From Hyphomonadaceae bacterium UKL13-1 (GTDB lineage Bacteria > Pseudomonadota > Alphaproteobacteria > Caulobacterales > Aquidulcibacteraceae), in assembly GCA_001602435.1 (NCBI GenBank), contig CP012156.1, forward strand, positions 3,417,898 through 3,481,897: 64,000 nt of DNA. The letters run 5' to 3'. Of the stretch, positions 6,010 to 29,022 are shown in pieces. The translations under genes and the position numbers were made by a program. The notes under the pieces are model-generated. The model was not told where the DNA came from and searched no databases. It worked only from the letters and a program-made list of their open reading frames with translations. How positions within the stretch are numbered: position 1 is the first letter of the stretch; each line of letters begins with the position of its first letter.

Positions 6010-6012
6010 GGC

Positions 6013-7146
6013 TTAATGCTCTCCCATTTTGGGGGCGCGCTTTCCAGCGGGGCGCTTGCCATTGACTTTGATCGGGCTGGCCAACATTTGCAAGCGGCCG
6101 TTCTTCGCATCCGGATGGTCGACGGCGTCGGTCATGCCGATAGCCTTCACGTGAGCGCTGTCGAGGGCTTGGCCGATGTTGTAAATCGGTGCGACAGGAA
6201 CATGACCGCCCAAAAGCGCGATCCATTCGGCCGTCGATTGGGTGCTCAACAGCGCATCAAGGACTTCCGTCAAGGCGACCAGATTGGCCCGTCTGGCTGG
6301 GATGCTGCTAAAGCGAGGATCGGCCAACAGGTCTGGGCGACCCGTCTTGGCACAAAAAATCTCCCAGAATTTTGGCGTTTGGCACATCAACATCAGCCAA
6401 CCATCTTGCGTCTTGAAAGCTTGGCTGGGCGCGATGGAGGGATGGGCCCCGCGTGGCAGGCGGCCCACTTCCACGCCCTCATTCAGATACCAGGTGGCCG
6501 GATAGGAGAGTTGATGCAGGGCCGTATCGAACAAAGCCACATCAATGTCGCAGCCTTGCCCCGTCCGTTGGGCGCCCAAAATCCCGGCCAGCAGACCGAC
6601 TGCCAATTGGCTGCCCGTATGAAAATCGATGATCGACAGGCCGCAACGAACCGGTGGGCCGTCTGGCTCGCCACTCATCGACATCAAGCCTGCCTCGGCC
6701 TGCATCAGATAATCATAGCCCGGCCAGGAAGCGCGATCATTGTCGCGTCCGTAGGCGGAGAGATGGGCGCAGACAATCTTGGGATTGATGGATTTGAGGT
6801 CGTCATAAGTGACCGCCATCTTGGCAGGCTGATCGCCGCGCAGATTGTTCGCCACCGCGTCTGCTTCTTTGACCAAAGCCTCAAACTGGGCGCGGCCTTC
6901 TGGGCTTTTAATCTCCAGCGCGATGGAGGATTTGCCGCGCGAGAAGGTCTGATAGAATTGGCTGTCTTGCGCACCCAAAAAATAGGGGCCGGTGGCCCGG
7001 CTGACATCGCCCCCCATGCTGGGGGCTTCGATCTTGATGATTTCAGCCCCCAAATCCGCCAACAACATGGTGCCATAAGGGCCTGCGCCATATTGCTCAA
7101 TCGAGAGGATTTTGATGCCTTTAAGGGGAAGCCCAGTTGTCTGCAT
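6013..7146 (-). CDS. CaiB/BaiF family CoA-transferase (second of two)
   Basis: A 377-residue family III CoA-transferase. Family features are IKILSIEQYGAGPYGTMLLADLGAEIIKIE at the N-terminus, SRGKSSIALEIKSPEGRA, VANNLRGDQPAKM and the likely catalytic Asp in LSIIDFHTGSQLA. Homologues include mesaconyl-CoA transferases and succinyl-CoA-dependent transferases, but the acid used here cannot be read. Its ATG overlaps the lipocalin stop (TAATG), so translation is probably coupled. A 600-codon frame on the opposite strand across this gene and its neighbour is a shadow. Confidence 0.9.
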   Translation of the reverse strand: MQTTGLPLKGIKILSIEQYGAGPYGTMLLADLGAEIIKIEAPSMGGDVSRATGPYFLGAQDSQFYQTFSRGKSSIALEIKSPEGRAQFEALVKEADAVANNLRGDQPAKMAVTYDDLKSINPKIVCAHLSAYGRDNDRASWPGYDYLMQAEAGLMSMSGEPDGPPVRCGLSIIDFHTGSQLAVGLLAGILGAQRTGQGCDIDVALFDTALHQLSYPATWYLNEGVEVGRLPRGAHPSIAPSQAFKTQDGWLMLMCQTPKFWEIFCAKTGRPDLLADPRFSSIPARRANLVALTEVLDALLSTQSTAEWIALLGGHVPVAPIYNIGQALDSAHVKAIGMTDAVDHPDAKNGRLQMLASPIKVNGKRPAGKRAPKMGEH

Positions 7147-7703
7147 TAGGGTTGAACCGTGTCTTTGAGCAGGTCGGTACGAAAGCCATTTTGCTCTGCG
7201 GCGGCATTCAGCGCAGCCCGCTGTTCAGTCGTGAGCGTCTTGGTGCGCGCCAAGAGCCACAGATAGGAGCCATTCGGGCTGCCCACCAAGGCGGTTTGAT
7301 AATTGGGATCCAGATACAGCACCCAATAATTGCCTTGCCCCTTTGGCAAAGGAATGGGTGCGAAGTTCACCGCAAGCTTTGCATTATTCGAGCCATCAAT
7401 GACGGCAGCCACCCCTTGTGCACTGCGCGGCTTGCCGTCGCTGGTACCCGTCGCACAGGTATTGGTGACCCCAACGCGACCATCGGGGCGCAGGGCGTAT
7501 TCGGCTGTGACGCCTTCGCATTTCTTCTGGAAACTGTTGGGATAGCGTGCAATCTCATACCACTTGCCAGCATATCGGTTAAGGTCAACAGAGGCGACCG
7601 TGATCGGGGGCGCAGCATCTTTTGCTCGCCCCATGGTTCCGGACATGCAGCCCGATAACGCGATGCAACCAATCAATGCGCTGGCATAGAGTGAAATTTT
7701 CAT
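7146..7703 (-). CDS. Lipocalin-family lipoprotein (Blc-like)
   Basis: A 185-residue bacterial lipocalin with a lipoprotein signal (lipobox LSGC, Cys19), so probably anchored in the outer membrane. The lipocalin signature is LNRYAGKWYEIARYPNSFQKKCEGVTAEYAL, with the conserved GxW, and a later YLDPNYQTALVGSPNGSYLWLLARTKTL. Blc-type lipocalins bind fatty acids or lysophospholipids, which would fit the neighbouring acyl-CoA genes, but this is inference. The ATG overlaps the stop of the GFA gene by four bases (ATGA) and the stop overlaps the next CoA-transferase start. Confidence 0.9.
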   Translation of the reverse strand: MKISLYASALIGCIALSGCMSGTMGRAKDAAPPITVASVDLNRYAGKWYEIARYPNSFQKKCEGVTAEYALRPDGRVGVTNTCATGTSDGKPRSAQGVAAVIDGSNNAKLAVNFAPIPLPKGQGNYWVLYLDPNYQTALVGSPNGSYLWLLARTKTLTTEQRAALNAAAEQNGFRTDLLKDTVQP

Positions 7704-8113
7704 CCTGTTTCCCCTTTCATGGGAGGAGAAGACTTATGCGCCAATTTGGCGGCATTGGCTTCCCAGTTCTGACCATCAAACGGCACAATCGAGAGGACGG
7801 GCGCTTGACCAACGTCAAAGCAATTGGCGTTGACGCTGACCCCATCGGGATTGGACCTTGGTGTGTAGAACGCTTTCACACCACATTTGGTACAAAAGGT
7901 ATGATTGGCAACGCCGGTATTGAACCGATAGGAGGTGAGCTTATCAGCCCCTGCCGTCAGTTCGAAATCGTCCATCGGCACAATCAAATGCACAAAGCCT
8001 GTCCGTGCGCAGATGGAGCAATTGCAGGCCTCCACCTCCACTTCATCTGGGGTCCGAACCGCAAAGCGCACATCGCCACAATGGCACGAGCCTGTTCGCC
8101 AAATCTTCACCAT
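7700..8113 (-). CDS. GFA-family zinc protein
   Basis: A 137-residue protein of the GFA / CENP-V family (named after the glutathione-dependent formaldehyde-activating enzyme). The zinc ligands are visible: CHC at 10-12, CNCSIC at 30-35, and FCTKCG further on. Many family members do not act on formaldehyde, so the substrate is open. It overlaps vapC by seven bases upstream and the lipocalin by four bases downstream, placing it inside one tightly packed operon. Confidence 0.85.
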   Translation of the reverse strand: MVKIWRTGSCHCGDVRFAVRTPDEVEVEACNCSICARTGFVHLIVPMDDFELTAGADKLTSYRFNTGVANHTFCTKCGVKAFYTPRSNPDGVSVNANCFDVGQAPVLSIVPFDGQNWEANAAKLAHKSSPPMKGETG

Positions 8114-8499
8114 CCAAGCACCTGTAGCCCTGTTACTTCTTCAAAGTCTTGCGGATTGAGGGTCACCAAAGTGGCACTTGCATTGAGCGCTTGGGCGGCA
8201 ATCATGCGGTCGAGGATTTTGCGGCGTGAGAACCCACAAGATTGCAGAATACTACCATATCGGTCGGCATCTTCCTCCTCAAAAGGGAGTACGGGCATAT
8301 GGGAAAGAAACACATCAAGTCGCTGACGCCTCAGAGTGGCAGAGGATGCCTCCCGATGAACGCCACCCTCCAGTTCCACCCGAGTGATCACAGAAATCGC
8401 AAACCTTCCGCTCAGGCCTTCCAGCTTACCAAGAATGGCTTGGCTGCGATCCCGAACTTCAATCGCGACACTGGTATCGAGCAAATAAAGCCCACTCAT
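8107..8499 (-). CDS. vapC: VapC-type PIN-domain ribonuclease toxin
   Basis: A 130-residue PIN-domain protein, the toxin half of a type II toxin-antitoxin pair that cleaves RNA with Mg2+. The acidic residues expected in the active site are Asp8 (LLDTSVAIE), Glu42 (RVELEGG), Asp97 (ILDRMIAAQAL) and Asp118 (LNPQDFE). All are present, so it should be active. The start overlaps the vapB stop by four bases, the usual arrangement. Unusually, its own stop overlaps the start of the GFA gene, joining the pair to five more genes downstream. Confidence 0.9.
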   Translation of the reverse strand: MSGLYLLDTSVAIEVRDRSQAILGKLEGLSGRFAISVITRVELEGGVHREASSATLRRQRLDVFLSHMPVLPFEEEDADRYGSILQSCGFSRRKILDRMIAAQALNASATLVTLNPQDFEEVTGLQVLGW

Positions 8500-8747
8500 A
8501 GCCCCTCACGCTCGGGAAAAATGTCAGTGTCGCGCACTTCAATGTCGGTGACGTCAGGCAGTTTGCGCAGTTCAGCCATCATTTGCTTGAAACTGATTTT
8601 TCCGGATCGCAATGTCGGCCGCAGGGTAATGACGTCCCCATCGCGCTCCATTTCCAACTCCGTGCCCTCAGGAAAGGCCAACGCCTTTGGCAAGCGCACC
8701 GCTTGGCTATTGCCGCTCTTGAACGTTTTGGTTTTGTGCGTCGCCAT
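8496..8747 (-). CDS. vapB: VapB-type antitoxin (AbrB/MazE-like DNA binding)
   Basis: An 83-residue antitoxin. The N-terminal half KTKTFKSGNSQAVRLPKALAFPEGTELEM is a swapped-hairpin AbrB/SpoVT domain that binds DNA; the acidic C-terminal half (LPDVTDIEVRDTDIFPEREGL) should wrap around VapC. I chose the ATG at 8747, preceded by AGGACAGGA. An in-frame ATG at 8777 sits in the middle of the operator palindrome and would add ten residues unlike the family. It is the first gene of the seven-gene run and is likely autoregulated with VapC. Confidence 0.9.
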   Translation of the reverse strand: MATHKTKTFKSGNSQAVRLPKALAFPEGTELEMERDGDVITLRPTLRSGKISFKQMMAELRKLPDVTDIEVRDTDIFPEREGL

Positions 8748-8765
8748 CGTCCTGTCCTTAGTTGA

Positions 8766-8787
8766 CCGTATATACATGTATATACGG
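8766..8787. promoter_or_regulatory. Probable VapBC operator
   Basis: A perfect 22-bp palindrome made of two GTATATAC half-sites (each itself palindromic) separated by AT and framed by CC/GG. It lies 19 bases upstream of the vapB start. Toxin-antitoxin complexes of this family bind such repeats at their own promoter. Position and symmetry support the call; binding is not shown. Confidence 0.75.
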
Positions 8788-8837
8788 CCATGATCGAGGT
8801 TTCAATCAGATTTCAAACCAAGGTCGGTCTGATCCCC

Positions 8838-10034
8838 CTAAATCGGGTTGCGGGCCACCAATTGCTTGGCGATGATGATGCGTTGCATTTCATTGGTGCC
8901 TTCGCCGATGCACATCAGGGGGGCGTCGCGATAGAGACGCTCGATGACATATTCCTTGGAATAGCCATAGCCGCCATGGATGCGCATGGCTTCCAGCGAG
9001 ACTTCCACGGCAGTTTCCGAGGCGAAGAATTTGGCCATGCCGGCTTCCATGTCGATCCGCTCACCCCGGTCAAAGGCGGCAGCCGCATCTTGGGTCAGAA
9101 GTTCTGCGGCGCGGGTCTTGGCGGCCATTTCGCCCAGTTTAAGCTGAATGGCCTGATGTTCGCAGATTGGCTTGCCCATCGTCTTGCGCATTTGGGCATA
9201 TTTGACGCTCTCGGCCAAAGCGCGCTTAGCAATGCCGACCGAGCGGGCGGCGATATTGACGCGGCCAATCTCGAGGCCGCCAGTGGCCATGATAAAGCCC
9301 TTGCCTTCTTCGCCGCCGACCAAGCTCTTCTTGGCATCAACTTCATAATCTTCGAAGATGAACTCACCAGAATCAATGCCCTTATAGCCGAGCTTCTCCA
9401 GCTTCTTGCCATTCTTGACGCCCTTAAGCGGCACCTTGGTTTCAGGGTCGATCTTGGGCACGATCAGCATGCTCATGCCCTTATGGCGGGGCTGGGCATC
9501 GGGGTCGGTTTTGACCAGCAAGGCTACGCAATGGCCTTCAATAGCGTTGGAGATCCAGGTCTTGGTGCCATTGACGATATAATTGTCGCCTTGACGGCGC
9601 GCGACGGTGCGGATGCCTTGCAAGTCAGTACCGGCATCGGGTTCTGTCAGACCCAGACCGCCACGCATTTCACCGGTGGCGAACTTGGGCAGCCAATATT
9701 CCTTCTGATAATCCGTGCCAAAGCGCTGCACGACGGTGGCCATCATCAAATGCGAGTTGAAGATACCCGTCAGGCTCATCCATTCTTGCGAGATCATGGT
9801 CACGATCTTGGAATAGGTGGTGGCCGACAGGCCAAGGCCGCCGTAATCGGGATGGATGATCGCGCCGAACAGGCCGAGCTCTGCCATGTCATTGACGAGG
9901 TCAGCTGGCCATTCGTTATCATGCTCCAGCTTCATCGCCACGGGGGCGACTTTCTTCTCAATCCATTTCTGGATGGCGTCCAGCATCTGGCGCTCATCTG
10001 CTTCGCTGATATGTCCAAAATTTCCGTCTGCCAT
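8838..10034 (-). CDS. Acyl-CoA dehydrogenase
   Basis: A 398-residue FAD-dependent acyl-CoA dehydrogenase that puts a 2,3-double bond into an acyl-CoA and passes electrons to ETF. Motifs: GLGLTEPDAGTDLQGI (FAD/substrate loop), NGTKTWISNAIEG, and RIHGGYGYSKEYVIERLYRDAP. The expected catalytic Glu sits in CIGEGTNEMQRIII near the C-terminus. Chain length preference cannot be read. It is the last gene of the operon citE-like, maoC-like, small membrane protein, acyl-CoA dehydrogenase, with an 11-base gap to the small protein. The same gene trio is known from the mycobacterial Rv2498c-Rv2500c region. Confidence 0.92.
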   Translation of the reverse strand: MADGNFGHISEADERQMLDAIQKWIEKKVAPVAMKLEHDNEWPADLVNDMAELGLFGAIIHPDYGGLGLSATTYSKIVTMISQEWMSLTGIFNSHLMMATVVQRFGTDYQKEYWLPKFATGEMRGGLGLTEPDAGTDLQGIRTVARRQGDNYIVNGTKTWISNAIEGHCVALLVKTDPDAQPRHKGMSMLIVPKIDPETKVPLKGVKNGKKLEKLGYKGIDSGEFIFEDYEVDAKKSLVGGEEGKGFIMATGGLEIGRVNIAARSVGIAKRALAESVKYAQMRKTMGKPICEHQAIQLKLGEMAAKTRAAELLTQDAAAAFDRGERIDMEAGMAKFFASETAVEVSLEAMRIHGGYGYSKEYVIERLYRDAPLMCIGEGTNEMQRIIIAKQLVARNPI

Positions 10035-10044
10035 GATGATGATC

Positions 10045-10263
10045 CTAGTCTTTCATGTTTTCTTTGAGTTTTTTGGCGGCAAGCAGGTCGGCAACCACAT
10101 AGGTGACGAGCGCCAGAGTGAGAGAAGGGGTAGCGGCATCCAAGATCCGGCCGATAACAACCAATGGGCCGGCACCGCCATGGTCGCTCCCCATCATGAC
10201 CATCATTCCGCCAATCCCTTCTAGGGCGGCGAGCACAGCGAGAATGCGGAGCAACAGAACCAT
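10045..10263 (-). CDS. Small membrane protein, unknown function
   Basis: A 72-residue protein with two likely membrane helices (MVLLLRILAVLAALEGIGGMMV and LVVIGRILDA through LALVTYVVADLLAA) and a charged tail KKLKENMKD. I do not recognise a family. It is supported as a real gene by a start codon that overlaps the maoC stop (TGATG), by an 11-base gap to the next gene and by a protein-like composition. It could anchor or regulate the acyl-CoA enzymes around it, but nothing in the sequence shows that. Confidence 0.6.
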   Translation of the reverse strand: MVLLLRILAVLAALEGIGGMMVMMGSDHGGAGPLVVIGRILDAATPSLTLALVTYVVADLLAAKKLKENMKD

Positions 10264-10784
10264 CAGTAATTGCCCACCTTATCCTCGACGGCATGGCCGC
10301 GAGCGGGGATCAGCATGTTGCGCTTGAAGGTGCACACCATGACGCCATCTTGGTTGAAGCCCTTGGTGACGATGGTCACAATGCCTTGACCGGGGCGCGA
10401 CGCGCTTTCGCGTTTGGCGAGGACTTCGCTCTCCGAATAAAGCGTGTCACCTGCAAAGACGGGGGCGGTGAACTTCACTTCATCCATGCCCAGATTGGCG
10501 ATCGCCTTCTGGCTGGTGTCGGTCACGCTCATGCCGATGCAAAGCGCCAACGTGTAGGGCGAGACGACGAGGTTCTTTTTGAACTCGCTCGCGGCGGCAA
10601 ATTGCGCGTCAAAGTGCATCGGGTGGGTGTTCATCGTCATCAGCGTGAACATGTGGTTGTCATACTCGGTGATCGTCTTGCCGGGGCGGTGCTCATAGAC
10701 ATCGCCGACGACGAAATCCTCAAAATAGCGACCAAATGTCTCGCGGTAGCGCTGGGGGCCAACTTCTTTCACGTTTCGGACCAT
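10263..10784 (-). CDS. MaoC-family enoyl-CoA hydratase
   Basis: A 173-residue hot-dog-fold hydratase. GKTITEYDNHMFTLMTMNTHPMHFDAQFA carries the hydratase-2 pattern (Asp and His of the DxxxxH type), followed by VVSPYTLAL and VKFTAPVFAGDTLYSESEVL. The TMNTHPMHFDA form resembles mesaconyl-CoA and itaconyl-CoA hydratases rather than long-chain enzymes, a suggestion only. It lies two bases from the CitE-like lyase gene, which fits hydration followed by C-C cleavage of a branched dicarboxyl-CoA. Confidence 0.88.
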   Translation of the reverse strand: MVRNVKEVGPQRYRETFGRYFEDFVVGDVYEHRPGKTITEYDNHMFTLMTMNTHPMHFDAQFAAASEFKKNLVVSPYTLALCIGMSVTDTSQKAIANLGMDEVKFTAPVFAGDTLYSESEVLAKRESASRPGQGIVTIVTKGFNQDGVMVCTFKRNMLIPARGHAVEDKVGNY

Positions 10785-10786
10785 GG

Positions 10787-11650
10787 TTAGAACTCAATTC
10801 CTGCTTTAGACAAAATACGCTCTGCGCGCAGATAGACGGGGATGTCGAGCATTTTGCCATCAAGTAAAACGGCGCGGCCATCCTGCGATTTGAAAGCTTC
10901 ACTTACGCGCTTGGCCCAGTCTAACTCAGCTTCAGAAGGCGAGAATACTTCATTAACAATGGCGACTTGGCTGGGGTGGATGCAGGCCTTACCGTCAAAA
11001 CCCAAGGCCTTCACGCGCACACATTCCGCCCGCAAGCCTTCTTCGTCCTTCACGTTCAGATAGGGCACATCCATCAAGGTTCCGTTGGTGACGCGCGCCT
11101 CGGTAGCCAAGGTTGAGCGAGCGTGAAACAGCGCCTCCCAGTCCATCCCGGTGCCAATGGCAAGTGAGTAGTCGGCCCCACCGAACAAGACGCCACCGCG
11201 CGAGCCGCAGGTTCCGGCTATTTCAGACGCACTTTTTAGCCCCGCCACGGTTTCGATCACGGCCCAAAGCGCCACGCGCTTCTGATTTAGGTCGCGCAAA
11301 TGTAGCAATTGCTGGAAGTTGGCGAGGGCTGAATAGGACGAGGCCTTTGGGATCATGAAGAAATTTGGGCGGGCCTCGGTCTCACTAAAGGCGATGATGT
11401 CCTTGAGGCCATCCAAAGTGTCGAGGCCATTCATGCGCACGCCAATCGCGCAAGCCGGATAGCTCTCGGCGTTGACCTCCAGCCAGCCAATTACCCTAGC
11501 GCGAGCGGCGGCTTTATCTTGCGGCGGCACAGCGTCCTCAAGGTCAATGCAAATGGAATCAGCCCCCGCCGCCAGTGCCTTTTCAAAGCGGTCTGGCCGG
11601 GAGCCCGGGACAAAGAGGAGTGATCGAAACGTTTTCATTTGTCCGGACAT
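10787..11650 (-). CDS. CitE/HpcH-family CoA-ester lyase
   Basis: A 287-residue TIM-barrel lyase/aldolase of the citrate lyase beta / malyl-CoA lyase group. Motifs are FRSLLFVPGSRPDRFEKAL, ICIDLEDAVPP (metal-binding Glu and Asp), VRMNGLDT, FMIPKAS and GGADYSLAIGTGMDW; the C-terminal GFDGKACIHPSQV is also typical. Such enzymes cleave 3-hydroxyacyl-CoAs (malyl-, methylmalyl-, citramalyl- or HMG-CoA). It is the first gene of its operon. The start at 11650 (ATGTCCGG) is preceded by AGG; an ATG 12 bases inside is an alternative. Confidence 0.88.
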   Translation of the reverse strand: MSGQMKTFRSLLFVPGSRPDRFEKALAAGADSICIDLEDAVPPQDKAAARARVIGWLEVNAESYPACAIGVRMNGLDTLDGLKDIIAFSETEARPNFFMIPKASSYSALANFQQLLHLRDLNQKRVALWAVIETVAGLKSASEIAGTCGSRGGVLFGGADYSLAIGTGMDWEALFHARSTLATEARVTNGTLMDVPYLNVKDEEGLRAECVRVKALGFDGKACIHPSQVAIVNEVFSPSEAELDWAKRVSEAFKSQDGRAVLLDGKMLDIPVYLRAERILSKAGIEF

Positions 11651-11729: not shown

Positions 11730-12308
11730 ATGTATCAACCGATGAGACTTGGTTTAGTAAGCGTTTTGATCGGGCTTCTCACAATGTCTGCGGCTCCTGC
11801 ACTCGCCCAGCACGCGGTCCCCGCACAAACTTCCGACGCCGCTTACAATGGCTCCTATTATAAGCGCCAGCTCTATGTCGTTACCGATATGGAGCGGGCC
11901 TTGACCCTTTGGCGCGACGTGCTTGGCCTCCAACCTGGGGCAATCACCACTTCGGGTCCCAATTCTTATTCGCGCGAAGTATTCAATATTCCCACTGAAG
12001 CGCAGATGCGCTTTTGTACCTTGAGTGCCGGGCCGACGCAGGTGCGCACCTTGGCCTTGCTGGAAGTCAAAGGCGTAACCCTGCCACCCAAGACCGGCAT
12101 TCGCACGACCGGCGCTGTCATTAATGCCAATGGCCGTTTGGCCGAGATCATCGCCAAGGCCCAAGCCATGGGTTTGACCGTATTTGGCCCACGCGTCTTG
12201 GCGTCTGTCGGTCAAGGCGACGGGACCGAGCAAGGCTTCCTCGACTGGGACGGCAATGTGATCGTGCTCTATGAATATCCCACGTCTGACGCACCGAGTG
12301 TTCGGTAG
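11730..12308 (+). CDS. Secreted VOC (glyoxalase-like) domain protein
   Basis: A 192-residue protein with a signal peptide (hydrophobic to ALAQ at about residue 26). A vicinal-oxygen-chelate domain follows: YKRQLYVVTDMERALTLWRDVLGL at its start and EQGFLDWDGNVIVLYEYP at its end. VOC proteins are usually cytoplasmic dioxygenases, isomerases or resistance proteins, so an exported one is less common. Metal ligands are not complete by eye: no His at the first position, but a Glu near the end of the domain. It is divergent from the CoA-lyase gene and convergent with pheT. Substrate unknown. Confidence 0.78.
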   Translation: MYQPMRLGLVSVLIGLLTMSAAPALAQHAVPAQTSDAAYNGSYYKRQLYVVTDMERALTLWRDVLGLQPGAITTSGPNSYSREVFNIPTEAQMRFCTLSAGPTQVRTLALLEVKGVTLPPKTGIRTTGAVINANGRLAEIIAKAQAMGLTVFGPRVLASVGQGDGTEQGFLDWDGNVIVLYEYPTSDAPSVR

Positions 12309-21906: not shown

Positions 21907-23106
21907 TTAAGCAGCGCCCCACACTGGCAGCGCCATCGCCGGAAACACGCCCGCGAGACCCAGTGCGATGTCTTCACGATCTGGGGCTGTCATGGCGTGG
22001 AAACCGATGGGTAGGCCGTCGATCAGGCCCATGGGCGCACTGATGGCGGGCAGGTCACCGACATTGGCGTACATGGTGGCATAGGCTTGATCTATCGGCG
22101 GGCCGACGTCGTGGTCAAAGGCGACATGCGAGACAGTCGGGCTGATGATGCCCGCCAATCCCTCGCGAGCCAAACAGGCGCGCAAGCGCTCTTTAGCCAA
22201 AGCGATCGTCTCATAGGCCTGATCCACGCGGGCTTGTGGCGAATTTTTGCCATAGAGCAGCATGGCGCGAAATTCTTCTGTTAAGCCTGACTTTGGGTCG
22301 GATAGTTCGGCGGCCCATTCGCGTGCGCCTTCAATCTCGCATACCAAAAGGCTGGCCAAAACCACGTCGATATCAGAGAAGCCCAAAGCGAGATCGACTT
22401 CGACCACTTCCGCGCCCGCACTGCGGAGGCGTTGGCAGGCTGCATCAAACACCCGCTGAACCAGCCGCGGGTTGGCTACACGGTCTCGGGCGACGGCAAA
22501 GCGAAGGCCCTGCACCGAGGCAAGGGGTGCAGGTGCCCCCAAGGCTTTCGCAACCGCCCAGAGGGTTTGAGGGTCTTTTGCCAAAGGACCCACTTGATCC
22601 AAAGTCGTCGACAGCGGCACGACGCCAATTTGTGAAACCAATGTGCCCGAAGGTTTCCACCCATAAACGCCACAATAGGACGCGGGCAGACGGATGGAGC
22701 CCATCGTGTCGGAGCCTAAAGCCGCATCGACCATCCCCGCCGCAATGGCAGCCCCCGACCCACCTGACGAGCCACCGGGCGAAAAATTAGGCCGCCAAGG
22801 ATTGATACAGCGGCCATAGGCCTTGTTATCGGTCGTGGCACCCAAGGCGCCTTCATGCATATTCAGTGTACCGACGATCTGTGCACCCGCTGCCCGCAGC
22901 GTGGCTACCACTGGCGCATCTTCCGCTGCAATCGCATGTCGACGCGCCTCTGATCCTGCCGTGTTGGCGAGGCCTTTTACGGCAATATTGCCTTTGACCC
23001 CAAGCCGAAGGCCCGCCAAAGGTCCATCACCCAAGGGCGGTGTATCGTCAAAGTCGATGAAGGCTTTGAGGGCCTGATTGGCGGCAAGAAAAGTCGAATG
23101 ATCCAT
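21907..23106 (-). CDS. Amidase-signature hydrolase
   Basis: A 399-residue amidase-signature enzyme. The Ser-cisSer-Lys triad is visible: Lys38 in LGVKGNIAV, Ser113/114 in GGSSGGSGAA, and nucleophile Ser137 in SDTMGSIRLP. The last motif usually reads DTGGSIR, so Met at the second position is a small deviation in the oxyanion loop. Length is near the family minimum, like AtzF/allophanate-type or aryl-acylamidases. It is the third gene of the operon MmgE/PrpD, CoA ligase, amidase: its start overlaps the ligase stop by one base. It may release the acid that the ligase activates, or trim a pathway amide; the substrate is unknown. Confidence 0.88.
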   Translation of the reverse strand: MDHSTFLAANQALKAFIDFDDTPPLGDGPLAGLRLGVKGNIAVKGLANTAGSEARRHAIAAEDAPVVATLRAAGAQIVGTLNMHEGALGATTDNKAYGRCINPWRPNFSPGGSSGGSGAAIAAGMVDAALGSDTMGSIRLPASYCGVYGWKPSGTLVSQIGVVPLSTTLDQVGPLAKDPQTLWAVAKALGAPAPLASVQGLRFAVARDRVANPRLVQRVFDAACQRLRSAGAEVVEVDLALGFSDIDVVLASLLVCEIEGAREWAAELSDPKSGLTEEFRAMLLYGKNSPQARVDQAYETIALAKERLRACLAREGLAGIISPTVSHVAFDHDVGPPIDQAYATMYANVGDLPAISAPMGLIDGLPIGFHAMTAPDREDIALGLAGVFPAMALPVWGAA

Positions 23107-24488
23107 CAGCGGTGATCTAGCAGGCGAATGGGCTTTTGTCTGGACTCAATCTGGGTCAAAGCAGCGGTGCCACCGGGTGGCACCAATTCGACTTGCGCTT
23201 CAATGCCCAGCTTGCGCTTCAACGTCTCACGATAGGCCTCTGGATTGCCACCGCGATCTTCGCACACGACCACAAGCTCATCGCGGCCTTGGCGATCGCG
23301 CATGACTTTACAAATCCACTCACCGGCAAAGGCGGGAAGCTCGGCCAAGATCGGCCCGACAGCTTGGGGGAAGACATTGATGCCGCGCAACTTGACCATA
23401 TTGTCGGACCGGCCAAGGAAGCCCTCAATGCGCTTAAACTGCACCCCGATGGCGCTTTTGTCGGTGCGGAATGCGCTGACATCATGGGTGTTGAAGCGAA
23501 TGATTGGATAGACATCATCCTTGAACAGACAGGTGACAATGAGGTCGCCTGTTTGGCCATCGGGGACGGGTTGGGCGGTATCGAGATCGCAAATCTCCAC
23601 CCAATGCGCGTCTTCCATCACATAGTGTCCATCGCGGTCTGGCCCTTCGCCCGCGATCATGCCGGTATCGCCCACGCCGTACCAATCATAGCAGGCCGCC
23701 CCACCCCATAGGGCGGAGACTGCATCCTTATCTTCCCGACCAAATTGGCCCGAGATCATGCGGATGGGGATATCGACGCCGGGCTCTAGCCCTTCGGCAC
23801 GGGCCACTTCAGCCAGCTTTTTGATATAGTCGGTAAAGCCCAAAATGACGGTCGCGCCAAAGTCGCGCATCAAAGCCACTTGCGCTGCACTGCGCGTTTC
23901 AATCCCGGTACCCGCCGACATGAAGGTCGCGCTTGTCCAGCGGGTGACGGCCTCCCGAATATAATGGCCGCCATTGATCATGCCGTGACCATAGACCGAA
24001 TGCACCACATCGCTTGGCCGCATACCCTGCCAGCGGAACAAGCGCGCGAGCAAGAGGTTCTGCACCTCCCGCGTTTTGGCCCCGAAGAATAGCGGCTGAG
24101 GCCGTCCTGTCGTGCCACTGGTCGTGTGAAAAATCATCGGCGGCCGAGCACCATCGGGATAGGAATCCAGGCCCGCAAAGTCCCCAAAAGGCGGATGAAG
24201 CGCAATACTCTCAACAATCTCTTGCTTGCCGAAGGTGGGCAGTTTCGGCAGATCGTCGAGCGATTTGATGTCGCCTGCCTCAATCCCATGCTTGCCCCAC
24301 AGGCGCTGATAGAAATGGGTCTTGGCGGCGCGCGCCACCAGCTTTTGAAACAGGCGCTCTTGATGGGCGCGCAAATGGTCGCGACTGATGGTGGTGGCCA
24401 TCTTCACAAAGTCATCGCCAATCGGATGGTCTTTCAAAAGCGCTGGATAATCCACGCTTTGGGCAAAGCTGGTGTGTAAGTCCGTCAC
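23106..24488 (-). CDS. PaaK-like adenylate-forming CoA ligase
   Basis: A 460-residue AMP-binding ligase closest in layout to phenylacetate-CoA ligase PaaK. The P-loop is HTTSGTTGRPQP; further motifs are YDWYGVGDTGMIAGEG, GDLIVTCLF, IRFNTHDV, LGRSDNMVKLRGINVFP and a C-terminal Lys in RQKPIRLLD. It activates a carboxylic acid with ATP to an acyl-AMP and then to the thioester. GTG is the start codon and overlaps the upstream stop (GTGA), so coupling with the MmgE/PrpD gene is likely. The aromatic-acid specificity of PaaK cannot be assumed. Confidence 0.87.
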   Translation of the reverse strand: MTDLHTSFAQSVDYPALLKDHPIGDDFVKMATTISRDHLRAHQERLFQKLVARAAKTHFYQRLWGKHGIEAGDIKSLDDLPKLPTFGKQEIVESIALHPPFGDFAGLDSYPDGARPPMIFHTTSGTTGRPQPLFFGAKTREVQNLLLARLFRWQGMRPSDVVHSVYGHGMINGGHYIREAVTRWTSATFMSAGTGIETRSAAQVALMRDFGATVILGFTDYIKKLAEVARAEGLEPGVDIPIRMISGQFGREDKDAVSALWGGAACYDWYGVGDTGMIAGEGPDRDGHYVMEDAHWVEICDLDTAQPVPDGQTGDLIVTCLFKDDVYPIIRFNTHDVSAFRTDKSAIGVQFKRIEGFLGRSDNMVKLRGINVFPQAVGPILAELPAFAGEWICKVMRDRQGRDELVVVCEDRGGNPEAYRETLKRKLGIEAQVELVPPGGTAALTQIESRQKPIRLLDHR

Positions 24489-25891
24489 GATAGGATCCCT
24501 GCGGCAAGGCGGCCCAAAAGGCCGACATCGGTGAGTTCTGTCAGCTGGTCCACGGCCTCAATGAGCGCGGCCTCTAGAACCGGATTGGCCTGGCCAAAGC
24601 CGAACGCGCAACAGGCCCGAAACTTTGCCAGATGGGCTTCCCGGCTCAACGGGCGTTGAGGGGTACCCAAGAGTTGTTCGATGCTTACTTCCAGAACCCG
24701 TCCATCTTTGAGACGGGCGCGCGCAGATTGCGGCACGAAGGCCGAGGCCTCTGTTACGTCATTGACCACAACTTCGATGCGGGCGGCGATCTGGTGGATG
24801 AGCGGATCATTGAGGCGGTCGGGCGTAAAATCCGTTAGACCCACATCGCCCTTGGTCAAAGCAATCGCGCCCACATAGGGCAAGCACAAGCGGGCATAAT
24901 TGACTTCCAGTGGCGCTGGCGCGATGGGGCGACCCACCAGATGATGGATCAAGGGCGGGGCCGAAATGGTCAAGCGGTCGAGATTATCGGCGGTCAGGCC
25001 TAAACGCGCCAAGTGCTGGATCATGTCGATCCCACCGTGCGAGGCGCGCCCACTGGGGAAGGGCTTCCAGCTGACTTCTGCCGAGCGCCACGCTTTGCCT
25101 AGACTGGCCATCACGGGCGCTAAGGCGGTTTCCAGCTCAAACAGCGAGAGATAGCCAAACGGCCCATCGATGGAGCCCAATGGGCCGGGCAGGCCCGCCT
25201 CCACCAAATCGACGGCCACAAAGGCAGATCGCGCGGCCCCTGCGACGCTTGCTGCGAGCGCTGGCGTGCCCTCGACATGGGCCTGCATCGTGCCGGACGC
25301 AAAGGCCAGCGCATAGCCAAAAGCGTGGGCAGTCTGATCGGTCGTGAGGCCTCGGGCATGGGCCAAGGCAGCCACCGCACCAAACAGGCCACAGGTGGCC
25401 GGCCGGAAAAAGCGGATTTGCGATTTGGCTGCCACGCCTAGGCCTGCGGCGACATCGACCCCGACAGCGGCGGCGGAAGTAAAGCGGGCTCCGGTCATGC
25501 CTGTGCGTTGCGCTTCAGCGAGAAGGACCGGGACTACAACGGTGAATGGGTGCAGCACCGCCGCTTCATGCACACAATCAAACTCCAGCGCATGGGCCTG
25601 AAACGCATTGACGAAGGCGGCGTGCGGGGCGGGTAAAGCCTCCCCCGTGGCGAAGACATTGGCCTCTGCGCCATGGCCCCATTTGGCGGCGGCTTGGCGC
25701 ACCCCTGTGGCATAGGGAGAGCGCGTCCCCGCAATGCCCACACCGATTAAGTCCAAGGTGAAATTGCGCACCGCTTGCACTACGGGCGGCGGCAGGGTCG
25801 CTAAACTGGTCGTGGCCACATGCTGGGCGAACTTCTGGGCCGCTGTGTGTGGCGCGCCTGTCTGTATAGACTCTGAGCTTTGTCCGGACAT
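24485..25891 (-). CDS. MmgE/PrpD family protein
   Basis: A 468-residue member of the MmgE/PrpD family, which includes 2-methylcitrate dehydratase and cis-aconitate decarboxylase. Recognised segments: LDLIGVGIAGTRSPYATG, HALEFDCVHEAAVLHP (the conserved HGxDFDDxH-like region), VGVDVAAGLG, FRPATCGLFGAVAALAHARGLT and FPSGRASHGGIDM. I took the ATG at 25891; an in-frame start at 25939 would reach into the divergent gene's promoter. First gene of a three-gene operon. The acid it dehydrates, decarboxylates or isomerises is unknown. Confidence 0.87.
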   Translation of the reverse strand: MSGQSSESIQTGAPHTAAQKFAQHVATTSLATLPPPVVQAVRNFTLDLIGVGIAGTRSPYATGVRQAAAKWGHGAEANVFATGEALPAPHAAFVNAFQAHALEFDCVHEAAVLHPFTVVVPVLLAEAQRTGMTGARFTSAAAVGVDVAAGLGVAAKSQIRFFRPATCGLFGAVAALAHARGLTTDQTAHAFGYALAFASGTMQAHVEGTPALAASVAGAARSAFVAVDLVEAGLPGPLGSIDGPFGYLSLFELETALAPVMASLGKAWRSAEVSWKPFPSGRASHGGIDMIQHLARLGLTADNLDRLTISAPPLIHHLVGRPIAPAPLEVNYARLCLPYVGAIALTKGDVGLTDFTPDRLNDPLIHQIAARIEVVVNDVTEASAFVPQSARARLKDGRVLEVSIEQLLGTPQRPLSREAHLAKFRACCAFGFGQANPVLEAALIEAVDQLTELTDVGLLGRLAAGILS

Positions 25892-25899
25892 ATTGGGGA

Positions 25900-25913
25900 C
25901 ATAGCATGCTATG
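25900..25913. promoter_or_regulatory. Palindrome in the divergent promoter region, candidate GntR operator
   Basis: CATAGCATGCTATG, a perfect 14-bp palindrome, lies 9-22 bases upstream of the MmgE/PrpD start and about 50 bases upstream of the CoA-transferase start. A GntR/UTRA regulator is encoded in the same cluster. A second near-palindrome, GTCTGTATAGAC, lies at 25860-25871 just inside the MmgE/PrpD gene and looks more like HutC-type sites. Either or both could be the operator. Confidence 0.45.
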
Positions 25914-25963
25914 CGCGAAGCGCAATCACTCTGACCCATTTTGCCGAGCGAGGCCTAAAAAAC

Positions 25964-27262
25964 GTGCAGACCCCGAATGGTTCGACACCGATAACCCAGT
26001 CTAAGCGGCTTAGCTCTCTCGCAGAGGCAGCAGCGCTTTTGGCAGAACGGGCACGTGGCGGACGGGTCTTTATCCCAGCGGGGCCGGTAGAGCCTTTGGG
26101 CTTGGCAGAAGCATTTCGCGCGAACCCCGGATTGGCCGACGAGTTGAGTTTTTGCGGCCTATTCATTCCGGGCCTCAATCGTTTGGATTGGGCGGCCCTT
26201 TCGCCGAAAGCCCGGGCGGAAGTTTTTCTGCCCAGCCCCGATTTTGCCGCGACCATCGCGACAGGCCAGACCCGTATTATTCCGTCGCACTATTCGGCTG
26301 CTTGGCGCTTTTTCAGGACAGCGCCCTTTAAGGCAGCGGTGTTTCATCTCGCCGCCCCTGATGCCGAAGGCTTTTGCTCGCTGTCCTTGTCGGCCGATGC
26401 CAGCCCGGCTTTCTTTGACCGCACAATGTTCAAGCTAGGCCTGATCAATCCAAGCCTGCCCCTGGTGAAGGGCGCGCCGAAGCTGCATCTGAGCGCTCTG
26501 GATGCTTGGGTGGAGGCCGATGCCCCACCGGCGGAATTGTCGACCCAAGCTCCAACTGGTGATGTGGACGCTCTGGTGCACCATGTGACCAGCCTGATTG
26601 AGGATGGCGCGACCTTGCAGGCGGGGATTGGGAAGCTGCCCGGCGCGATCATGGCGGGGCTGACCCAGCGACGCGGCCTTTCCATTTACTCCGGCCTGAT
26701 TGGGGATTGGGTTCTGCCTCTGATCGACGCAGGGGCCTTGGCGGATCATGCGGGAAGTTTGAAGGCCGGTGTCATTCTGGGCAGCCACGCTTTACAGGAC
26801 CGCATGGCGCAAGAGGCGCGCTTAAAGCTGATCCCGATTGCCGAGACCCACGGCGCGGCCCATCTTGGCTCGATTGAGCGCTTTACCAGCCTCAATGCGG
26901 CGCTGGAGGTGGATTTGTTCGGCCAGATTAATTGCGAATTTGCGGATTCGCGGACGCTGGCAGGCGTTGGCGGCGCGGTTGACTTCTTGCGCGGTGCTCG
27001 CCTCAGCCCTGGCGGCAAGCCCATTGTGATGGTGCAAAGCCTTGGCAAGCAAGGTGAGACCCGGATTATGCCGCGGCTTAATACACCCAGTGTCTCCATT
27101 GCCCGTTCTGATGCACCTATCTTGGTGACGGAACACGGCGCAGTCGATCTAGAGCCCCTCGATACCGAAGCCCGCGCGCAGGCCATTATCTCGCTGGCCG
27201 CGCCCCAGCATCGCGCGGACCTAATGGCTGCTTGGTCGCAGCAGAGAGGTGTTAAAGCATGA
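25964..27262 (+). CDS. Acetyl-CoA hydrolase/4-hydroxybutyrate CoA-transferase family protein
   Basis: A 432-residue family I CoA-transferase of the acetyl-CoA hydrolase type. Key parts: TLQAGIGKLPGAIMAGL, SGLIGDWVLPLIDAGAL, the probable catalytic Glu in AALEVDLFGQIN, GGAVDFLRGA, and VTEHGAVDLEPLDTEARAQAII at the C-terminus. The relatives use acetate, 4-hydroxybutyrate, or itaconate as CoA acceptors. I prefer a GTG start at 25964 with GAGG ten bases upstream; a TTG at 25880 would overlap the divergent gene. Its stop overlaps the start of the GntR gene by four bases (ATGA). Confidence 0.85.
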   Translation: MQTPNGSTPITQSKRLSSLAEAAALLAERARGGRVFIPAGPVEPLGLAEAFRANPGLADELSFCGLFIPGLNRLDWAALSPKARAEVFLPSPDFAATIATGQTRIIPSHYSAAWRFFRTAPFKAAVFHLAAPDAEGFCSLSLSADASPAFFDRTMFKLGLINPSLPLVKGAPKLHLSALDAWVEADAPPAELSTQAPTGDVDALVHHVTSLIEDGATLQAGIGKLPGAIMAGLTQRRGLSIYSGLIGDWVLPLIDAGALADHAGSLKAGVILGSHALQDRMAQEARLKLIPIAETHGAAHLGSIERFTSLNAALEVDLFGQINCEFADSRTLAGVGGAVDFLRGARLSPGGKPIVMVQSLGKQGETRIMPRLNTPSVSIARSDAPILVTEHGAVDLEPLDTEARAQAIISLAAPQHRADLMAAWSQQRGVKA

Positions 27263-27975
27263 GTGCGCCAAACTCCCTCTACCGCCGTTTGGCAGACGAC
27301 CTGCGCAAGGCCATTGCCTCGGGCCATTATCCGACAGGCAGCTTACTGCCCACGGAGTCTGACTTGTGCGCGACGCACCAAGTCTCACGCCATACGGCCC
27401 GTGACGCCCTGCGCATCTTGACCGATGAAGGCCTGATTGAGCGACGGCGGGGTGCAGGCTCGGTCGTGATTGCGGCCAAGCCGATTGGTCCTTTCTCGCA
27501 GGGCTGGGGCGAGATTGGCGATATTCTCCAATATGCGCGCGATACACGCTTGGTGATCTTAAGCTATGGCCCAGCCGATCCAGCCGATCTGGCCGCCATG
27601 GGCCTTGACCTAGCGCAGAGCTGGATTGGGATTGATGGCCTGCGGGTTCGTACGACCGGTGGCAGGCCCTTGGCCCATACAAGCATTTGTGTGCGCGCCG
27701 ACCTTGCCCCACCGCGCGCCGCTTTAGACGATTGGCCCCATGCCATCGCCGAATATATCGCCCGTCATTCTGGGGTCCTAGCGGCAACGATTGAACAAGA
27801 CATTTCCGCCATCAAGCTCAGCCGAGGGCTCGCCAAAACCTTGCATGAGCACGCGGGCGATCCGGCCCTTCGCACCCGACGGCGCTATTTCGATGCTGCA
27901 GGTCATATCTATCAAGCGAGCATCAGCATCCACCCGGGCGAGCATTTCACCTATTCGATGTCGGTCAGTCGCTAG
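27259..27975 (+). CDS. GntR-family regulator with UTRA ligand domain (HutC type)
   Basis: A 238-residue repressor-type regulator. A winged helix-turn-helix fills residues 5-70 (LRKAIASGHYPTGSLLPTESDLC, VSRHTARDALRILTDEGLIERRRGAGS), followed by a UTRA ligand-binding domain (about 90-235, with RTTGGRPLAHTSICVRADLA and RTRRRYFDAAGHIYQASISIHPG). HutC-type proteins respond to a pathway substrate. It is translationally coupled to the CoA-transferase gene and probably controls the divergent promoters at 25892-25963. The stop overlaps the convergent transporter gene stop. Confidence 0.9.
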   Translation: MSAPNSLYRRLADDLRKAIASGHYPTGSLLPTESDLCATHQVSRHTARDALRILTDEGLIERRRGAGSVVIAAKPIGPFSQGWGEIGDILQYARDTRLVILSYGPADPADLAAMGLDLAQSWIGIDGLRVRTTGGRPLAHTSICVRADLAPPRAALDDWPHAIAEYIARHSGVLAATIEQDISAIKLSRGLAKTLHEHAGDPALRTRRRYFDAAGHIYQASISIHPGEHFTYSMSVSR

Positions 27976-28979
27976 CTTGCCATCATCATGAGGCCGACCC
28001 CGGCTGCGGAGATGGCGGCGATGATGGCGGTCTGGATCAGAAGGGCTCCCACCGCGCGTGGGCCTAACAGCATCACACCCTTGATCGACGTGTTCGCCCC
28101 CAAGGCGACCATGGAAACGATCAAGCAGACGCTGGACAATTTGGTCAAAGCCGCAATGCCTTCAGGCGTCAGCCAGCCCGTATTGGCGACCACAATCGCG
28201 GCGACAAAGCCCAATAGAAACACCGGCACGGTGGCTTCATTTTCTTCCTGATCGCCCTCTTTGCGGTCGCGCCAGGACAAGATCATCAACAGGCCAAAGA
28301 TCACGACCGGCATCATGGCGACGCGGATCATTTTCACCGTCGTGGCTGCAGGCGTGGCGGCTTCACCATAGACGTCCGACGCCGCCACAACTTGCGCAAC
28401 TTCGTGGATGGAGGCACCCAGAAACACCGCCGAGGGGATCATGGGGATGTTGAAGAAGTGACAAAGTGCGGGATAGGCGACCACAGCGATGGTGCCGATG
28501 ATGGTGATGCTGGCCACGGTCGCCACCACGTCACGCTCAACATTCGAATTGGGGCGGCGCGCCAAGACGGTTGCAATCGCCAAAGCCGCCGACGCCCCAC
28601 AGATGGCAACCGAAGTCGCCGTCAAGAAGGCAGTGGCGCGGGGCAGTTTCAAAGCCCGCCCTGCCAGATAGCCCAAGCAAAGTGTGCCAAAGGCAGCTGA
28701 GACCGCGATCACGGCGGGTTGCCAGCCTAAGGCTTGCAAGTCTGAAATCGTGATGCGGAAACCCATCAAGGCGACCCCAACCCGCAACAGGGGCTTGGCC
28801 AATAAATCATTGCCGGGCTTGAAGGTGGGCTTGGTCAAGACAATAGCGGCCAACATGCCGAGCAGCAGCGCAATCAACAGGGTGGGAACGCGCGTGCCCT
28901 GGGTCGGGAAATAAGCAATGGCAGCTAGAAAGAGACCCAAACCAACACCGGGGCCAAACTTTGTCAGCGATTTAAACAT
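27972..28979 (-). CDS. YeiH/UPF0324 family putative sulfate exporter
   Basis: A 335-residue inner-membrane protein with about ten hydrophobic helices. Family segments are LLRVGVALMGFRITISDLQALGW, SVAICGASAALAIATVL, GASIHEVAQVVAAS and TKLSSVCLIVSMVALGANTSIKG. The YeiH group is annotated as putative sulfate exporters, and homologues appear beside sulfonate or cysteate pathways; direct evidence of function is thin. Start ATG at 28979 (MFKSLTKFGPG); an alternative lies four codons upstream. Convergent with the GntR gene. Whether it belongs to that cluster's pathway is open. Confidence 0.85.
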   Translation of the reverse strand: MFKSLTKFGPGVGLGLFLAAIAYFPTQGTRVPTLLIALLLGMLAAIVLTKPTFKPGNDLLAKPLLRVGVALMGFRITISDLQALGWQPAVIAVSAAFGTLCLGYLAGRALKLPRATAFLTATSVAICGASAALAIATVLARRPNSNVERDVVATVASITIIGTIAVVAYPALCHFFNIPMIPSAVFLGASIHEVAQVVAASDVYGEAATPAATTVKMIRVAMMPVVIFGLLMILSWRDRKEGDQEENEATVPVFLLGFVAAIVVANTGWLTPEGIAALTKLSSVCLIVSMVALGANTSIKGVMLLGPRAVGALLIQTAIIAAISAAGVGLMMMAS

Positions 28980-29022
28980 GTGGCCCCACAATCAGGCGCG
29001 CTTACCCAACGCGCCGACACAT

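Follow-up and report, generated by a model that had tools for sequence, protein, structure and literature searches.

A five-gene amidase, ligase and MmgE/PrpD set in Hyphomonadaceae bacterium UKL13-1 as a possible arm of a GntR-controlled catabolic pathway

Five genes at positions 21907-27975 of a 64,000-nucleotide stretch of Hyphomonadaceae bacterium UKL13-1 DNA (hereafter, the window; part of a 3.50-Mb single-contig genome) encode an amidase, a PaaK-like acid-coenzyme A (CoA) ligase, an MmgE/PrpD protein, a protein of CoA-transferase fold and a GntR/UTRA regulator. Comparison with related loci revealed that this set is half of a unit about twice as large, which is split in two in the window; the second block lies approximately 11 kb away, with pheT and polA among the intervening genes. 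We propose a GntR-controlled catabolic pathway with the five genes as one of its arms and the block at 3767-11650 as the other, a reading that we regard as evenly balanced between right and wrong. The gene content is best read as an inducible route in which a substituted succinate- or maleate-type acid would arrive as an amide or cyclic imide and be cleaved as a CoA ester.

The five-gene set and its second block

The five open reading frames (ORFs) were intact, with zero internal stops. An ORF check and Pfam searches recovered all the genes, strands, overlaps of one and four bases and the 72-base gap that had been described in an earlier, sequence-only reading of this DNA. The features were as follows.

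21907-23106, minus strand: amidase-signature hydrolase (Pfam Amidase, 235.6 bits)
23106-24488, minus strand: PaaK-like adenylate-forming acid-CoA ligase, GTG start (AMP-binding_C_2, 28.9 bits; closest PDB entry 4r1l)
24485-25891, minus strand: MmgE/PrpD protein of the ligase-adjacent subtype, here MmgE2 (Pfam MmgE_PrpD_N, 155.2 bits; Foldseek)
25881-25890: TGTCCGGACA, an operator-like palindrome that overlaps the start codon of MmgE
25892-25963: divergent promoter region of 72 bases, containing the palindrome CATAGCATGCTATG
25964-27262, plus strand: protein of the Cat2/4-hydroxybutyrate (4HB) CoA-transferase family/RipA fold, GTG start (Pfam AcetylCoA_hyd_C, 121.7 bits)
27259-27975, plus strand: GntR/UTRA regulator, HutC-subfamily-like (Pfam GntR, 65.4 bits, and UTRA, 56.2 bits)

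The ligase and amidase genes overlap by 1 base, and the MmgE and ligase genes and the CoA-transferase-fold and GntR genes by 4 bases each; a -1 or -4 base overlap of ligase and amidase was common in relatives' loci. The MmgE frame stays open to 25939, with a further ATG, and the GTG start of the CoA-transferase-fold gene is uncertain, as locus L034 has an in-frame ATG 9 bases further downstream.

Related loci were obtained by a genome-collection scan, in which the best 80 of 292 relatives (L032-L111; 48 with full 10-kb flanks) spanned Alphaproteobacteria and some Beta- and Gammaproteobacteria, e.g. Stenotrophomonas. The closest were those of Aquidulcibacter, placed in Caulobacterales, and near relatives. 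In L038, L039, L046, L075 and L091, the set runs on into genes for a CitE-like protein, a MaoC protein, an acyl-CoA dehydrogenase and two CaiB proteins, and a short-chain dehydrogenase/reductase (SDR) gene and a PuuE-like hydrolase gene often stand ahead of such fused sets. The window carries the CitE-like, MaoC, acyl-CoA dehydrogenase and CaiB genes of this extension in its second block.

11640-11649: operator-like site TGTCCGGACA, second perfect copy, overlapping the CitE-like start codon
10787-11650, minus strand: CitE-like C-C lyase, Ccl/RipC relative (PDB 3qll, E 2e-47; RipC_Ccl, 216 bits)
10263-10784, minus strand: MaoC-type hydratase, Ich/RipB relative (RipB_Ich, 233.6 bits)
10045-10263, minus strand: putative membrane protein of 72 amino acids, 1-base overlap with the MaoC gene (zero Pfam families above cut-off)
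8838-10034, minus strand: acyl-CoA dehydrogenase (85% identity to a cluster member)
7700-8113, minus strand: GFA-family protein, with a similar gene in the L075 cluster (Pfam GFA, 62.5 bits)
7146-7703, minus strand: Blc-like lipocalin, overlapping the adjacent CaiB gene by 1 base, with a similar gene in L075
6013-7146, minus strand: CaiB family III CoA-transferase (Pfam CoA_transf_3, 368.5 bits)
4840-6009, minus strand: CaiB family III CoA-transferase, second copy (Pfam CoA_transf_3, 341.4 bits)
3767-4840, minus strand: DUF2332 protein (Pfam DUF2332, 306.7 bits)

Both blocks are joined in L046 and L075, and the joined L075 cluster includes similar GFA-family and lipocalin genes. The window MaoC protein shared 86% identity with its orthologue in the L048 cluster, and 3qll, the closest PDB match of the CitE-like protein, is presumably RipC. 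The DUF2332 family also occurred near the cluster in L037, L093, L107, L110 and L111. Genes for a MazE/VapB-like antitoxin and a PIN-domain toxin (8107-8777, minus strand) interrupt the second block, with the acyl-CoA dehydrogenase gene on one side and the GFA gene on the other; in L041, the CaiB genes are separated by a different small insert, also of two genes. A gene for a weakly glyoxalase-like protein (11730-12308, plus strand) is divergent from the CitE-like gene.

A shared operator-like site and co-occurrence across genomes

Both window operons stand under what looks like one switch, probably the GntR regulator acting at TGTCCGGACA. The MmgE and CitE-like proteins both begin with MSGQ because the site overlaps both start codons. 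Across the 80 loci, 72 sites were found in 51, compared with 1.5 expected from composition, and most copies in relatives adjoin the starts of MmgE, CoA-transferase-fold or CitE genes. By number of loci hit, TGTCCGGACA ranked first among all 1024 palindromic 10-mers; palindromes of the same composition hit 1.7 loci on average and 18 at most. A copy was present in 46 of the 48 loci with a cluster-type GntR gene, the remaining two having one-mismatch copies, and in 5 of the 32 loci without such a gene. The earlier suggestion that the cluster has its own regulator was supported; the regulator would bind the site, and ATTTGTCCGGACAAAT is the stretch proposed as its putative target. Of the four perfect sites in the whole genome, the two not yet mentioned precede genes for an acyl-CoA dehydrogenase and for a DUF1838 protein, the latter with a related gene that adjoins the cluster in relatives. 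Among the matches listed, literature hits to the letters of TGTCCGGACA concerned other subjects.

The name of HutC, the histidine-utilisation repressor, was dropped for the regulator, which scored 87.4 bits against a curated cut-off of 220. CATAGCATGCTATG, a 14-base palindrome at 25900-25913, recurs with small changes in L032-L035 and L037. A gene for a YeiH-family putative exporter (27972-28991, minus strand) converges on the GntR gene with a 4-base end overlap, and this neighbour was limited to L032-L037 among the 80 loci.

Genes in the loci were called by codon usage, as longest-ORF calling gave shadow ORFs in GC-rich loci; because the codon-usage calls were poor in some loci (L065, L088), gene counts were taken from tblastn. 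MmgE, ligase and amidase genes occurred together in 46 of the 48 full-flank loci, an association beyond chance, and the set that the sequence-only reading had proposed to search for in other genomes is co-conserved. The CoA-transferase-fold gene joined these three in 25 of the 48, two MmgE genes were present in 32, and the triad plus CitE, MaoC, acyl-CoA dehydrogenase and CaiB genes were all present in 24. The downstream genes of L098 were judged unrelated on the starts of their sequences alone.

In an order sample of 398 genomes, the ligase was matched (E 1e-30) in 85, and 59 of these matches were orthologues (at least 63% identity, E < 1e-140), the rest being PaaK-type paralogues of approximately 30% identity. 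The MaoC orthologue (E 1e-60) was present in 59/59 ligase-positive versus 6/339 ligase-negative genomes, and a PuuE-like gene (E 1e-80) in 57/59 versus 1/339. A methyltransferase was searched for in two subsets of 40 genomes, one from the 59 with and one from the 339 without the ligase; it was found in 40/40 versus 1/40, and the SDR, in the same subsets, likewise in 40/40 versus 1/40. The sole exception for both was G246, an 87% complete genome that carries CitE, MaoC and PuuE-like genes too. Among the 398 genomes, the same-genus G018 had neither the ligase nor close MaoC/CitE orthologues, the PuuE-like gene, the methyltransferase or the SDR. The CoA-transferase-fold homologue was dropped as a pathway marker; it occurred in 145 of the 398 genomes (E 1e-30), mixed with other contexts.

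In the UKL13-1 genome, the PuuE-like, SDR and methyltransferase genes are grouped outside the window (L118), and an isochorismatase gene and another PuuE-like gene occur elsewhere (L119). The PuuE-like hydrolase scored 229.4 bits, below the curated PuuE cut-off of 424.6, and PuuE was the closest named solved relative of its L046 orthologue (E 1e-55). The methyltransferase (L118 10379-11647, 422 amino acids) is S-adenosylmethionine-methyltransferase-like; its best curated model, the corrinoid protein-associated CpaM, was matched far below the cut-off.

Residue changes in MmgE2 and the CoA-transferase-fold protein

Two enzymes of the five-gene set have altered active sites. Both Pfam domains were found in the window MmgE2 (155.2 and 92.5 bits), and its model (pLDDT 89.6) had cis-aconitate decarboxylase (CAD) as the best Foldseek match (TMq 0.83). 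The catalytic His (CAD His103) corresponds to His114 and is kept in 71/71 ligase-adjacent copies; one Lys is also kept in the window. As described in PMC12290011, a His and a Lys equivalent to CAD His159 and Lys207 bind the shared 1,4-dicarboxylate and are conserved across the family. The window protein has Phe162 and Leu212 instead, and the ligase-adjacent copies have Phe in 69/71 (others His and a gap) and Leu in 69/71 (others Lys and X), respectively. Because these dicarboxylate-binding residues are changed, MmgE2 probably takes another substrate, which perhaps carries an amide or thioester in place of a free carboxylate. The upstream paralogue found in relatives has His and Lys at the two positions in 43/43 and differs at another, the first His being replaced by Asn, Ala or Ser in 43/43; the UKL13-1 genome has one MmgE only, and the upstream type is absent. 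Short genes were left out of these counts (1/72 ligase-adjacent and 3/46 upstream). The methylcitrate-like chemistry guessed at in the sequence-only reading found no support, because MmgE2 scored 31.3 bits against the curated PrpD (2-methylcitrate dehydratase) cut-off of 950 and the two conserved residues are absent. The methylcitrate cycle itself was rejected on this score, with no PrpC/AcnD-type neighbour recognised.

The CoA-transferase function assumed earlier fared similarly. The predicted structure (pLDDT 88.1) has a class I CoA-transferase fold, matching the 4HB-CoA-transferase 3gk7 (TMq 0.86, 26% identity) and RipA 3qli (TMq 0.87, 24% identity). In the alignment, Gly244 occupies the position of the catalytic Glu that forms the glutamyl-CoA thioester, and Gly was found in 41/41 sequences (the window and 40 cluster homologues). 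Because of this replacement, the label "CoA-transferase" probably names the wrong function. According to PMC5380842, IpdAB, a CoA-ester ring-cleaving hydrolase acting on COCHEA-CoA in steroid catabolism, has Gly57 in place of the catalytic Glu. By analogy, hydrolysis or binding of a CoA ester is a likelier role for the window protein than CoA transfer. Copies sampled outside the cluster had Gly in 10/11, one ordinary homologue having Glu, and the residue pattern suggests that the Glu-less homologues are a wider subfamily extending beyond the cluster. Several of those outside it (L120-L129, same order) adjoin enoyl-CoA hydratase, CaiB or CitE genes.

The amidase and ligase kept their expected residues. 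Lys38, cis-Ser113 and Ser137 of the amidase, the Ser-cisSer-Lys triad, were present in 76/76 sequences, and the P-loop, Asp336, Arg360 and Lys452 of the ligase in 78/78, window included in both cases; these motif positions and names follow general knowledge of the families. The closest PDB entry to the ligase was the phenylacetate-CoA ligase 4r1l (E 6e-45). Its AMP-binding N domain scored 22.2 bits, under the Pfam cut-off of 29.9, and it reached 140.5 bits against the curated PaaK cut-off of 646.3. Because the scores fell far short of the curated cut-offs, the names Ich, Ccl, PaaK, PrpD, HutC and PuuE were not given to the proteins described here.

Proposed pathway and comparison with known systems

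Gene content, conservation, co-occurrence, the shared site and the residue changes were computed, and from them we infer every reaction, the step order, the repression and the substrate. A PuuE-like hydrolase would open a cyclic imide or half-amide that serves as the nitrogen-bearing precursor of a C-substituted succinate- or maleate-type acid, and the amidase would deamidate the opened product. The acid could then be converted to its CoA ester by the PaaK-like ligase, the CaiB transferases or both, and MmgE2 might isomerise the free acid or half-amide through C2 proton abstraction. The acyl-CoA dehydrogenase would introduce a double bond, MaoC would hydrate it, and cleavage of the product by the CitE-like lyase would yield a 2-oxo acid and an acyl-CoA. 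The Glu-less CoA-transferase-fold protein may hydrolyse or bind a CoA ester rather than transfer CoA. Bound to TGTCCGGACA, GntR would keep both operons repressed, and binding of a pathway intermediate to its UTRA domain would lift the repression. The most economical reading appears to be an itaconate/methylsuccinate-like thioester route with C-N hydrolases added at the front. The itaconate-like chemistry guessed at earlier gained comparative support, because relatives fuse the five-gene set with Ccl/Ich/Mcd/CaiB-type genes and the second block of the window shares the operator-like site; the Ich and Ccl cut-offs, on the other hand, were missed.

Several observations weigh against this scheme. 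The obligate methyltransferase and the SDR have no place in it, and the ligase and CaiB transferases would be redundant. The changed dicarboxylate-binding residues of MmgE2 mean that the substrate of this enzyme may not be a dicarboxylate. MmgE was present in 75/80 loci (5 without) and the amidase in 76/80 (4 without), some absences being contig ends, and the co-occurrence statistics (Fisher 4e-64 for the MaoC orthologue and 2e-65 for the PuuE-like gene) ignore relatedness among genomes. The PuuE-like/SDR/methyltransferase block of the UKL13-1 genome has no copy of TGTCCGGACA. Perfect sites numbered 4 genome-wide versus 6 for a reversed-pattern control, and with one mismatch allowed the count in the window equalled chance; the argument is therefore based on the placement and conservation of the site.

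The locus could instead encode plain itaconate/methylsuccinate degradation, diverged in sequence, supplemented by a few genes and directed at those same C5 acids, which we consider unlikely. PMC12290011 gives the route Ict-Ich-Ccl-Mcd-Msi as CaiB-type, MaoC, CitE, acyl-CoA dehydrogenase and MmgE families, equal to the five families found here, and RipB/Ich and RipC/Ccl were the best curated models. However, the scores were below the equivalog cut-offs (MaoC, 233.6 vs 340 bits; CitE-like, 216 vs 375 bits), the His and Lys that the published isomerases retain are missing from the window MmgE2, and C5 acids need none of the near-invariant ligase, amidase, PuuE-like, SDR and methyltransferase genes.

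It is also rather improbable that the genes serve an arylacetate or alicyclic pathway, in which the amidase and ligase would convert an arylacetamide to an arylacetyl-CoA and the Glu-less protein would open a ring like IpdAB. The best solved relatives of the ligase are phenylacetate-CoA ligases, the best NCBIfam model of the amidase was indoleacetamide hydrolase (192.8 bits vs a cut-off of 532), the Glu-to-Gly change is shared with IpdAB as reported in PMC5380842, and an enoyl-CoA hydratase gene adjoins many clusters as well as Glu-less homologues elsewhere. Such a pathway would, however, leave the CitE/MaoC/MmgE module unexplained; every family score was far under its equivalog cut-off, and oxygenase and thiolase families were not recognised among the conserved neighbours.

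The preferred thioester route could be narrowed to the first bacterial pathway for substituted maleimide- or succinimide-type cyclic imides, e.g. from tetrapyrrole (chlorophyll, haem, bilin) breakdown, which is a highly doubtful specification. The PuuE-like protein would open the imide, the amidase would free the diacid and the itaconate-like thioester route, using the Glu-less CoA-transferase-fold hydrolase, would cleave it. The hints are the PuuE-like co-occurrence, the Blc-like lipocalin and TonB receptors. CpeT/CpcT (phycobilin lyase) family genes lie near the cluster in L040, L041, L042, L044, L048 and L068, with a TonB receptor gene adjoining in 5/6, and REDY-like HapK neighbours in 11 loci are a similar hint. 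In Caulobacter L061, L066, L069, L077, L078, L080 and L090, LeuC-, LeuD- and PrpB-like genes lie near the cluster, with two genes of the PuuE-like kind after them; the LeuCD-/PrpB-like genes recall, as a possible hint, dimethylmaleate hydratase and dimethylmalate lyase.

The HapK- and CpeT/CpcT-family neighbours just mentioned, present in some of the relatives, and the obligate methyltransferase orthologue (40/40) would also suit a biosynthetic cluster in which the ligase, methyltransferase, amidase and CoA-ester enzymes make a metabolite. We find this scarcely plausible, since carrier protein, condensing enzyme and export genes were not recognised among the conserved neighbours examined, and the CitE/MaoC/acyl-CoA dehydrogenase/CaiB genes with GntR, and TonB, TRAP and sodium-symporter genes close by, typify uptake and catabolism. 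A neighbourhood due to chance or hitch-hiking, its genes sharing no function, would fit the dispersal of the blocks in the UKL13-1 genome but is extremely improbable given the operator-like site common to both blocks and the near-perfect co-occurrence over genomes.

The co-travelling genes found in many Proteobacteria, with a regulator and a conserved operator-like site, point to a widespread natural substrate. Automatic names appear to mask two functional shifts, one in a large group of Glu-less "CoA-transferases" and the other in an MmgE subtype whose substrate-binding residues have changed. The gene set is open at once to knock-out and to feeding of candidate compounds. It may also be undescribed, as suspected earlier: no description of it was found in a literature full-text search, which is weak evidence of absence as most subscription journals lay outside its reach. 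The accompanying claim that no named pathway has this set held for the five genes, whereas the larger set overlaps the itaconate/methylsuccinate pathway.

Among known systems, Yersinia RipABC resembles the cluster in the closeness of the CoA-transferase-fold protein to RipA (TMq 0.87) and of the CitE-like protein to 3qll; RipA, however, keeps its Glu (E249) where the window protein has Gly, identity is low (24%) and extra genes are present here. IpdAB likewise is a CoA-transferase homologue with Gly for the catalytic Glu, but it has two subunits of the glutaconate CoA-transferase type, whereas the window protein is of the Cat2 type and consists of one chain. Steroid genes were not recognised here, and a steroid ring-cleavage pathway was rejected, with the Glu-to-Gly parallel alone retained. 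According to PMC9304392, HxnM and HxnN of Aspergillus nicotinate catabolism are a cyclic imide hydrolase and amidase pair. The cluster similarly links a PuuE/PgdA-like putative cyclic imide hydrolase with an amidase-signature amidase, although the pathway differs and the link here is a genomic one. MmgE2 shares the MmgE fold (TMq 0.82-0.83) and the catalytic His with CAD and iminodisuccinate epimerase, differing in the Phe and Leu that replace CAD His159 and Lys207. The closest parallel in gene families is the itaconate/methylsuccinate cluster of Pseudomonas and Cupriavidus, whose five enzyme families are present and linked here and form one operon in many relatives. The differences are the MaoC and CitE-like scores below the curated Ich and Ccl cut-offs and the active-site changes of the window MmgE2, and the ligase, amidase, Glu-less CoA-transferase fold, PuuE-like hydrolase, SDR, methyltransferase and GntR go beyond that cluster. 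Without claiming membership, we suggest that the system may work in part like the itaconate/methylsuccinate pathway.

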